The position numbers were made by a program, and so were the translations under genes. A DNA stretch of 33,771 bases from NCBI GenBank assembly GCA_031290255.1, contig JAITNW010000002.1, forward strand, positions 1-33,771, read 5' to 3'. The notes under the pieces were generated by a model, which had not been told where the DNA came from, did not search any database, and saw only the letters and a list, made by a program, of their open reading frames with translations. Positions 99 to 33,771 of this stretch are shown one piece after another. This DNA is from Candidatus Nomurabacteria bacterium. GTDB taxonomy: Bacteria > Patescibacteriota > Saccharimonadia > Saccharimonadales > Saccharimonadaceae. Positions within the stretch are counted from its first letter, which is position 1; every line of letters starts with the position of its first letter.

Positions 99-214
99 GA
101 GAAACCCCCGATACCTAACTCCCAGCATCATTGCGAACCAGTGAAAGCACCCAGAGGGGCTGCTTTCCTGCGTGAGCACTCCTGATGCTGGGGGTTAGGT
201 GTTGGGGGTTTCTC
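99..214 (+). repeat. Family I structured inverted repeat, copy L1
   Basis: Left arm 99-130 pairs with right arm 183-214 over 32 bp with no mismatches other than three G.T (G.U) pairs. Core TTGCGAACCAGTGAAAGCACCCAGAGGGGCTGCTTTCCTGCGTGAGCACTCC is shared with copies at 12.8 and 32.0 kb. Confidence 0.9.
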
Positions 215-4666: not shown

Positions 4667-4752
4667 GAACGGGCGACAGAGTCTAGGGGCCTCCCCAGAA
4701 AGAAAATTTCTTAAATTTTTTTCTGGGGAAAAGACTCTAGCAGGCCCCGTTC
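4667..4752 (+). repeat. Family II small hairpin element, copy A (diverged)
   Basis: Nested inverted repeats GAACGGG/CCCGTTC, AGAGTCT/AGACTCT, TCCCCAGAAA/TTTCTGGGGA; same layout as copies B-E with compensatory substitutions. Confidence 0.85.
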
Positions 4753-12241: not shown

Positions 12242-12700
12242 TTATATATCAAGATCGTCTAAATCCGCAAGCTCTGCGCGCGTCTTTTCTGCAAGCTCGT
12301 TGTCTTTTTCCACAGGCTCAGCCTCTGCTTCCTCTGCTGGTGCCTCTGTTTCCTGACTTTCTTCTGAAATGTCTTCCGACGCAAAACTATCATCAGACTG
12401 CACATCGTTCCGATCATCCTCGCGGCGATCATTCCGCTCCGCCGGCACATAATCATCATTATTTACAATCTTCAGATTGTAACGAGCGTCATTTTTAGTG
12501 CCAAGCGCACGCAGCAGCGTACGAATACTCTGCGCAGTAGCACCACGCCGACCGATAATCCGCCCCACATCTTCCGGATCTACTTCCAAACTCAGAAGCA
12601 CGCCCTTCTCGTCGATAATTCTTTCTACCTTTACCTCATCAGGGTTATTTACGAGAGTCTTCACGATATACTCTACAAATTGCTGATCTATTGTGGACAT
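12242..12700 (-). CDS. KH-domain RNA-binding protein (KhpA/YlqC-like) with acidic C-terminal tail
   Basis: DVGRIIGRRGATAQSIRTLLRALG KH signature; gene order next to rpsP as in many bacteria. Confidence 0.92.
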   Translation of the reverse strand: MSTIDQQFVEYIVKTLVNNPDEVKVERIIDEKGVLLSLEVDPEDVGRIIGRRGATAQSIRTLLRALGTKNDARYNLKIVNNDDYVPAERNDRREDDRNDVQSDDSFASEDISEESQETEAPAEEAEAEPVEKDNELAEKTRAELADLDDLDI

Positions 12701-12812
12701 AGGTTTTCTCCATTCTTAGTTGATATTATTAGTATAACACGAAAAAATCCCTAAACGCTAATGAAATCGATATCGTAAAACCACTGAATACAGATTCAAA
12801 CAAAGTGTCAGA

Positions 12813-12931
12813 GAAAAAGCTGAGTAAGTAGCTTTCGGGGCGATTGCGAACCAAAGAAAAACCTGCCCAGAAGCAGGTCTTTTTCTTTGCGTAAGCACCC
12901 TTGCCCTGAAAGCTACTTACTCAGCTTTTTC
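12813..12931 (+). repeat. Family I structured inverted repeat, copy L2
   Basis: Arms 12813-12843 / 12901-12931 (31 bp, two G.T pairs, no other mismatches). The right arm overlaps the last codons and stop of rpsP. Core TTGCGAACCAAAGAAAAACC...TTTGCGTAAGCACCC. Confidence 0.9.
12853..12889 (-). terminator. Intrinsic terminator downstream of rpsP, formed by the inner hairpin of Family I copy L2
   Basis: Minus-strand AAAAAGACCTGC-TTCTGG-GCAGGTTTTTCTTT, a GC stem followed by a T-tract. Confidence 0.75.
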
Positions 12932-13285
12932 CACCTCAGCGCTTTCTTCCTCAGCAGAAGCAACCTCTTCCCTAGACTGATTCTTCCTAAGCTTATCAGC
13001 ATGCTTAGGAGCAACCGTCTTCTTAACACCCTCATCCACCCACCTAGGCAACTTCACCCCCTCAGCCCTAAGAATCCGCACCACCCGAGTACTAGGCTGA
13101 GCCCCATTATCAAGATATTTTTGCGCCACCTCTTTATTAACGTTAGTGGCTTTCGTATGAGGGTTGTAAGTGCCGACCTGAGCTACAATACGACCCGAAA
13201 GAGGGTGGCGTTGCGCTTCTTGGACGACTATCCGGTATAGGGGTAAACCCTTCCGGCCATTACGCTGTAAGCGAATCGCGAGCAT
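12917..13285 (-). CDS. rpsP: 30S ribosomal protein S16 with C-terminal extension
   Basis: MLAIRLQRNGRKGLPLYRIVVQEAQRHPLSGRIVAQVGTYNPHT. Confidence 0.96.
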   Translation of the reverse strand: MLAIRLQRNGRKGLPLYRIVVQEAQRHPLSGRIVAQVGTYNPHTKATNVNKEVAQKYLDNGAQPSTRVVRILRAEGVKLPRWVDEGVKKTVAPKHADKLRKNQSREEVASAEEESAEVEKAE

Positions 13286-13314
13286 TTAATTTCCTTTACT
13301 TAATTAATATCTGT

Positions 13315-13343
13315 ATTTTACAGCGTTTCCAGCCCGAAGTCAA
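13315..13343 (-). promoter_or_regulatory. Sigma70-like promoter for rpsP
   Basis: Minus strand TTGACT-17-TAAAAT, upstream of AAAGGAAATTAAATG. Confidence 0.65.
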
Positions 13344-13372
13344 GCATAGCCATAAGAATAAGCACAATTCTA

Positions 13373-13401
13373 TTGACTTTTCGCGCCAAGTATGCTATAA
13401 T
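13373..13401 (+). promoter_or_regulatory. Near-consensus promoter (TTGACT-17-TGC TATAAT) directed antisense into rnc
   Basis: TTGACT 13373-13378, 17-nt spacer, TATAAT 13396-13401; no + strand CDS downstream until 14694. Confidence 0.75.
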
Positions 13402-13426
13402 GGAAAGATAAGGGCCTTTTCTTCCC

Positions 13427-14143
13427 TCAAGATTTCGCCTCTTTCTTATAAGTCAACAGCGCCCTCTCCGCCGCCTCCACCTGCGCCACCTGCTTACTAT
13501 GCCCCGCACCAGTCCCCTTCAGCTTATTCCCAATAAACACCCCAAGCGTAAAGATCTTATCATGATCCGGCCCATCCTCCTTCAGCACCTTATAAACTGG
13601 CGTTACCCCCTCAGTATGTTGCGCCACCTCTTGCAAATGTGATTTCGCATCCCGCCAAGACTCATTCTTTAGAATCTCATCAATTTTCACCAAAATATTA
13701 TCATGAATGAACTTTTCCGCCTGCTTATAGCCATGATCCAAATAGATCGCCCCAATCACCGCCTCGAAACAATCCGCCAAAATCACTGCATGCGCCCGCT
13801 CTGACCCTCGCTTCTCCCCCTTACTCAGCCTCACCAAAGGCTCATACCCCAGCCGAATCCCCGCCTCAGCAATACTCTCCGTCCGCACCAAAGCCGCCCG
13901 CCAACTCGTCATAATCCCCTCCGGCTCATCGTAATTCCGGTACAAAAAGTCCGAAGTCGCCAGCTCCAACACCGCGTCCCCCAAAAATTCCAACCGCTCA
14001 TTATGTTCCGTCACCGATTTCTTATGCTCGTTCACATAAGACCGATGCGTCAAGGCCGTAACCAGAAGCTGAATATCATTAAATTCAAATCCCAGTTTCT
14101 CCCTCGCAAAATCTTTATATGCATCTAATTGTTCTCTATTCAT
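13427..14143 (-). CDS. rnc: Ribonuclease III
   Basis: ALTHRSYVNEHKKSVTEHNERLEFLGDAVLELATSDFLY signature; C-terminal dsRBD-like region. Confidence 0.97.
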   Translation of the reverse strand: MNREQLDAYKDFAREKLGFEFNDIQLLVTALTHRSYVNEHKKSVTEHNERLEFLGDAVLELATSDFLYRNYDEPEGIMTSWRAALVRTESIAEAGIRLGYEPLVRLSKGEKRGSERAHAVILADCFEAVIGAIYLDHGYKQAEKFIHDNILVKIDEILKNESWRDAKSHLQEVAQHTEGVTPVYKVLKEDGPDHDKIFTLGVFIGNKLKGTGAGHSKQVAQVEAAERALLTYKKEAKS

Positions 14144-14195
14144 GGTGATATTCTAGCATAAATGTCGAAAAATCTTTAAAAATAGCGCGTTGGTA

Positions 14196-14277
14196 GCGGG
14201 TCCTGTCGAGGTCTTCTCCCCACAAAAAAATTTAAGAAATTCTTTTTGCGGGGATGCCCCTAGACCTCACCACCCGC
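14196..14277 (-). repeat. Family II small hairpin element, copy B
   Basis: Minus strand GCGGGTGGTGAGGTCTAGGGGCATCCCCGCAAAAAGAATTTCTTAAATTTTTTTGTGGGGAGAAGACCTCGACAGGACCCGC, near-identical to copy C. Confidence 0.92.
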
Positions 14278-14340
14278 AGATAAGCTATTCTTTAATTTAT
14301 GAAATGTGCAATATTCCATAAATTAACACAAAGCGTCAGA

Positions 14341-14508
14341 GCGGGTGGCAGGACATAGGAGCCCTCAAAGTCTCAAATAATTGTTCCATCATACCCGCGG
14401 TACCACCCAAGAAATTTGTAGGAAGACTGCCGGCAGGGGCCTTGCAGTGTAACCCATCCAAGGAAGCAATTTTTGAGACTTTGAGGAAAATGTCCTGACA
14501 GGACCCGC
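14341..14508 (+). repeat. Family II large structured element F sharing termini with the small copies
   Basis: GCGGGTGGCAGGACAT...CCTCAAAGTCTCAAA / TTTTGAGACTTTGAGG...ATGTCCTGACAGGACCCGCC. The first part recurs at 33710-33771 with one substitution. Confidence 0.88.
14396..14408 (-). promoter_or_regulatory. T-box-like 13-mer GGGTGGTACCGCG inside element F
   Basis: Minus strand GGGTGGTACCGCG matches the T-box consensus AGGGUGGNACCGCG except the first A. The rest of a T-box architecture is not evident. Confidence 0.3.
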
Positions 14509-14561
14509 CCCACATCACCTCTATTATTTTGACACCCAGCGAAAAATAAGCATAATAAGTA

Positions 14562-14590
14562 TTGACTTTTCAGACCAACTGTGCTAGTAT
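14562..14590 (+). promoter_or_regulatory. Sigma70-like promoter for the 74-aa ORF
   Basis: TTGACT 14562-14567, 17-nt spacer, TGC-TAGTAT 14585-14590. Confidence 0.7.
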
Positions 14591-14693
14591 AAGAAGCAGT
14601 TAGATAATAAAAATAAACATCTAACAAACAAAAAACGAATTCCAAAGGGTATTAGGAAGGGACAAAGAACAAAAATAAACAGGAAACATTAAA

Positions 14694-22423: not shown

Positions 22424-22438
22424 TCAGATAGCGTATGC

Positions 22439-22523
22439 GCGGGTGGTGAGGTCTAGGGGCATCCCCGCAAAAAGAATTTCTTAAATTTTTTTGTGGGGAG
22501 AAGACCTCGACAGGACCCGCCCC
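22439..22523 (+). repeat. Family II small hairpin element, copy C
   Basis: GCGGGTGGTGAGGTCTAGGGGCATCCCCGCAAAAAGAATTTCTTAAATTTTTTTGTGGGGAGAAGACCTCGACAGGACCCGCCCC. Confidence 0.93.
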
Positions 22524-22546
22524 AATAAGCTTTCTACCAAAAATGA

Positions 22547-30453: not shown

Positions 30454-30504
30454 CACCCAGTATTTCTATAACACACGATTCACCAAATAATACAAAGCTT
30501 CCAA

Positions 30505-30588
30505 GCGGGTGGCGAGGTCTAGGGGCATCCCCACAAAAAGAATTTCTTAATTTTTTTGTGGGGAGAAGACCTCGACAGGACCCGCCCC
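30505..30588 (+). repeat. Family II small hairpin element, copy D
   Basis: GCGGGTGGCGAGGTCTAGGGGCATCCCCACAAAAAGAATTTCTTAATTTTTTTGTGGGGAGAAGACCTCGACAGGACCCGCC. Confidence 0.93.
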
Positions 30589-31945: not shown

Positions 31946-32059
31946 GGGAAAATCTAAATTGCTCCTTTCGAGATCATTGCGAACCAGTGAAATCACCCTG
32001 AGGGGCTGATTTCCTGCGCGAGCATTCCTGATCTCGAAAGGAGCAACTTAGATTCTCCC
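31946..32059 (+). repeat. Family I structured inverted repeat, copy L3
   Basis: Arms 31946-31976 / 32029-32059 (31 bp, two A.C mismatches); core TTGCGAACCAGTGAAATCACCCTGAGGGGCTGATTTCCTGCGCGAGCATTCC. Confidence 0.9.
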
Positions 32060-33529: not shown

Positions 33530-33582
33530 CGGCGCGGGTCCTGTCGAGGTTTTAAGTCTATCGGCGCGGGTCCTGTCGAGGT
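33530..33582 (-). repeat. Partial tandem duplication of the Family II terminus (32-bp period)
   Basis: CGGCGCGGGTCCTGTCGAGGT at 33530-33550 and 33562-33582. Confidence 0.9.
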
Positions 33583-33647
33583 CATCTCCCCACAAAAAAA
33601 TTTAAGAAATTCTTTTTGCGGGGATGCCCCTAGACCTCACCACCCGC
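33566..33647 (-). repeat. Family II small hairpin element, copy E
   Basis: Near-identical to copy B; followed by the same AGATAAGCTATTCTTTAA spacer start. Confidence 0.92.
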
Positions 33648-33709
33648 AGATAAGCTATTCTTTAAGCAACATAATGTGCAGCATCTATCAAATAACATAT
33701 AGCGTCAGA

Positions 33710-33771
33710 GCGGGTGGCAGGACATAGGAGCCCTCAAAGTTTCAAATAATTGTTCCATCATACCCGCGGTA
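33710..33771 (+). repeat. Family II large element F', truncated by window end
   Basis: GCGGGTGGCAGGACATAGGAGCCCTCAAAGTTTCAAATAATTGTTCCATCATACCCGCGGTA matches 14341-14402 with one substitution. Confidence 0.9.

Follow-up and report, generated by a model that had tools for sequence, protein, structure and literature searches.

A palindromic repeat over the 3' end of rpsP belongs to a dispersed element family in two sister Saccharibacteria

Nearest described palindromic repeats

Rickettsia palindromic elements (RPEs) are short palindromic repeats that occur in intergenic DNA as well as in frame within unrelated genes (PMC10969869), and the CGTC-tagged repeats have a terminal tag (CGTC or TGTC) and, in many cases, a CCA-like tail, include intragenic units and have no known dedicated transposase (PMC3733652). 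Template switching creates perfect stems and keeps them so by copying the other DNA arm, as described for RNA genes such as those of microRNAs and rRNA (PMC8794818). In the mitochondria of Nematomorpha, coding genes contain perfect inverted repeats whose arms evolve in concert (PMC6649704).

The repeat that we describe lies over the rpsP 3' end of a Saccharibacterium and shares traits with the first two of these. Like RPEs, for which the size criterion is about 100-150 bp, it is a dispersed palindrome of ~120 bp, with ~15 copies in its genome and in-frame insertions in unrelated protein genes; like the CGTC-tagged repeats, it includes intragenic units and often has a CCA-like tail, and some of its copies bear a tag-like AGYGTC motif. 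Neither a transposase (none was found among the 20 window proteins scanned) nor a target-site duplication, as would mark a MITE, is known for it. It differs from RPEs in belonging to another phylum and in having stems of ~31 bp that are nearly locus-specific around a conserved core. CGTC-tagged repeats have stems of 8-9 bp and loops of 4-5 nt, whereas here the stems are long and nested and the tag is present in some copies only. Hairpins made by template switching have been described for RNA genes, in contrast to a dispersed repeated element, and the Nematomorpha palindromes are those of animal mitochondria and are not known to have a conserved repeated core. RPEs and CGTC-tagged repeats are the nearest described families and those that the element most resembles. 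We assign it to neither, because its arms measure 28-36 nt and its core folds by itself, unlike the short stems and loops by which CGTC-tagged repeats are defined, and because the likeness to RPEs is one of description.

The reading that we consider probable is that a non-coding palindromic element of the RPE or CGTC-tagged-repeat kind was inserted over the rpsP 3' end and that its arms are kept matched by copying at the DNA level. Such an element would be, or once have been, mobile; one arm would be copied onto the other, as could happen through template switching at the hairpin, and at gene ends this copying could extend into the flank, leaving a distal arm that is the inverted gene end. At rpsP the element's arm would then hold the stop codon, and the inner hairpin probably ends transcription.

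The rpsP copy and its dispersed relatives

Within the window, by which we mean the whole stretch of 33,771 nt that was analysed, an inverted repeat lies 3' of rpsP, with 29-nt arms that are 28/29 complementary (97%) and stand 61 nt apart (Table 1). As the first-pass annotation had claimed, the right arm includes the rpsP stop codon and last codons (the final four codons plus stop, GAAAAAGCTGAGTAA) and the left arm inverts this coding end downstream; the inverted copy is exact over all 15 nt, stop included. The inverted match scores 15, against a best of 9.5 in shuffled downstream DNA (500 shuffles) and a maximum of 9.5 and a median of 5 at 29 congener rpsP loci. The right arm additionally bears features found family-wide; neither these nor the boundary motif at the distal edge had been noted in the first-pass annotation.

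Table 1. Positions of the rpsP palindrome, its parts and further copies in the window
Feature	Position	Strand	Remark
Boundary motif AGTGTCAGAG	12804-12813	+	outer edge of distal arm; common to some other copies
Distal (left) arm	12813-12841	+	carries inverted copy of rpsP end
Inner part of distal arm, CTTTCGGGGC	within 12813-12841	+	family-conserved inner arm
Conserved core motif ATTGCGAACC	12843-12852	+	
Inner hairpin, core subtype Ib	12853-12888		terminator-like on both strands
Inner-hairpin stem	12857-12882	minus	
Inner-hairpin stem	12861-12878	plus	
Conserved core motif GCGTAAGCACC	12889-12899	+	
Right arm	12903-12931	+	overlaps final 15 nt of rpsP (12917-12931)
rpsP (ribosomal protein S16)	12917-13285	minus	stop codon within right arm
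Further copy, subtype Ia	99-214	+	same window
Further copy, subtype Ia	31946-32059	+	same window, between two convergent genes

The rpsP copy is one of ~15 in the 698-kb source genome (G000), where 14 full covariance-model matches and one subtype Ib copy in tsaD were tallied. Of the element copies examined in their gene context, most occupy gene 3' ends or intergenic sites. Several contigs end in element copies (C5, C6, C11, C12 and C14 in G000; C2, C3 and C5 in the congener G006), so that copy numbers are uncertain by a few; some of these terminal copies may have been duplicated in assembly. The cores are for the most part nearly identical, whereas the arms (~31 nt) vary by locus, yet pair inside each locus. 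Across ten G000 loci the arms share 12 nt at their inner end (z 11.8) and 11 nt at their outer end (z 5-8), while the middle is weakly conserved (z about 3); arm identity between loci averages ~13/31 nt, compared with 8.4 in shuffles. At the distal-edge position 3 of 11 copies, that at rpsP among them, carry the sequence AGYGTC, where 0.07 would be expected; the other copies lack it.

G006, with 16 copies, is the only congener with clear relatives of the element among the 40 of 45 congener genomes sampled, and some of the remaining congener genomes likewise gave no match. In a tree of LDH, ExoI and S16, G000 and G006 are sisters (support 1.0). They have two element loci in common, the tsaD loop and the rluB-pilM interval; the arms differ between the genomes and pair in each, and these shared loci may reflect independent insertion at the same places. 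Searches of the congeners with the core pattern returned single one-mismatch matches only, with the palindrome absent, and this pattern was unmatched in genome_contigs and viral_contigs. The R1 query found nothing in 120 other genomes of the family or at 80 further rpsP loci. Weak R2 matches in other genera (at most 37 bits) were not counted as members, those that were read being other hairpins, many of them at tRNA ends. Rfam gave no family at the gathering threshold for the element, and a miRNA-type match was set aside as a generic long stem scoring under the cut-off.

The element is in frame inside truB, sbcB, priA and tsaD in G006 and inside tsaD in G000. Aligned with uninterrupted congener genes, these inserts measure ~21-31 aa and fall in variable loops, and in several of them the outer arms are imperfect, which counts against the reading that we consider probable. 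Read in frame at four G006 loci (L245, L247, L249 and L255), the core gives KTLPE[AT]G, similar to a sortase motif; we take this LPETG-like reading as coincidence, no membrane-anchor segment following the motif. Because G006 has 16 related copies, four of them in frame in genes, a fixed element did insert. The earlier proposal that the palindrome arose by copying of flanking DNA instead of insertion of a fixed element is not supported, in view of these in-frame copies and of the core and the inner and outer arm ends common to ten loci.

A second nested-palindrome family (Family II) is also present in the window (4681-4749, 14196-14512, 22428-22532, 30474-30588 and 33554-33771), with ~25 pattern matches in the genome and a common motif, AGCGTCAGAG (14332-14341, 33701-33710). 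Part of it (14385-14410) resembles T-box sequence on the minus strand; identification of Family II as a T-box was rejected, with no T-box match over 12700-14600 and the sole match in the genome lying elsewhere and below the cut-off.

Origin of the arms

At pth, rluB and ldh of G006 the gene ends have the commonest length and native-like residues, the tail being 22 residues past DFVLSKF in pth, 22 past LHR in rluB and 24 past the RLGLKL motif in ldh. Because the coding-side arm at these three genes is the native gene end, it is the distal arm that is the inverted copy, over 20/21 nt at pth and more weakly at ldh (p 0.018). These comparisons support the view that an arm can be made as an inverted copy of the adjacent gene's 3' end. 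The earlier claim of a gene-derived arm thus has support as a general process; at rpsP itself the sequence evidence is split between the sister's rpsP and the family's arm consensus. The comparison of rpsP across relatives that the first-pass annotation had suggested fits capture and also plain insertion: none of the 29 congener rpsP loci examined, among them that of G006, has the element or the inverted copy of the gene end, and the congener loci that were read have an ordinary short terminator-like hairpin 3' of the gene.

Two accounts of the rpsP arms are each possible. Under the first, the coding-side arm would be original rpsP and the distal arm a fold-back copy made after the core had inserted, in which case GTGGAAAAAGCTGAG is expected in the rpsP end of an element-free close strain. 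The last seven G000 rpsP codons match the uninterrupted rpsP of G006 at 17/21 nt, in register and displaced by two codons from the same offset (p 0.002 in the vicinity of that offset, 0.01 with any offset allowed and 0.027 in codon-shuffled local alignment), and pth, rluB and ldh of G006 offer further cases of the process. However, the coding-side arm fits the profile of nine other copies as well (p 1e-4 over 34 nt and 0.002 over the outer 22), and the distal edge carries the family boundary motif, which is not rpsP-derived. That profile match, together with an arm consensus common to the copies, points instead to the second account, possible to much the same degree, in which the native rpsP tail was replaced by element sequence, now the coding-side arm, and the last S16 codons are element-encoded; the in-register match with the sister's uninterrupted rpsP argues against it.

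We are more doubtful of a broader scheme in which gene-3'-end hairpins of Saccharibacteria, those of this element and of tRNA genes alike, would repeatedly act as fold-back points, with the gene end copied inverted downstream, palindromes growing from terminators and some of them dispersing. In other Saccharibacteria genomes, eight tRNA genes (L216, L218, L221, L223, L226, L228, L236 and L238) are followed by a terminator-like hairpin and then by an inverted partial copy of their own T-arm region, 47-56 nt past the tRNA; at two tRNA-Pro loci the copy is exact, over 13 and 15 nt. ARAGORN predicted no second tRNA at these inverted T-arm copies. Because the model that retrieved these loci rewards pairing, they are no gauge of prevalence. 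Derivation of the element's core from a tRNA end, prompted by its CCA, was dropped because the spacing is unfit.

Arm matching and termination

Arm positions comprise 655 Watson-Crick pairs, 15 G-U and 12 A-C. Selection on RNA pairing is expected to favour G-U over A-C. The lack of a G-U excess among the mismatches and the presence of in-frame copies speak for DNA-level copying from arm to arm, by which one arm, copied onto the other, would keep the stems matched. We consider it unlikely that the element is instead a structured RNA, or a large terminator acting in both directions, in which RNA selection maintains arm pairing through compensatory mutation. Changes on both sides in 33 of 49 pairs, on which the probable reading draws as well, the prevalence of gene 3' ends and intergenic positions among context-read copies and the terminator-like inner hairpin at rpsP are what such selection would lead one to see; on the other hand, G-U does not exceed A-C, copies persist in frame within genes, Ia cores lack a T-run after the inner hairpin, and Rfam offers no family for the element at the gathering threshold.

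On the rpsP strand the inner hairpin (12882-12857) has 11 pairs followed by a T-rich tail, a consensus match to an intrinsic terminator, and it plausibly, indeed probably, terminates rpsP transcription. The suggestion that it doubles as a rho-independent terminator is consistent with this stem and tail, but termination is unlikely to be the element's purpose, because the same core type occurs inside reading frames in G006. The hairpin belongs to the family's core; that it was the original rpsP terminator is not favoured, the same core type being found in G006 copies remote from that gene.

Should the in-frame copies be translated, the candidate phyla radiation would likewise have coding palindromes resembling those of Rickettsia. 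Moreover, a conserved core flanked by differing yet matched arms, at the two loci shared by the sister genomes among others, amounts to a natural experiment on how long stems are kept perfect, in which RNA selection would leave one spectrum of mismatches and DNA template switching another.
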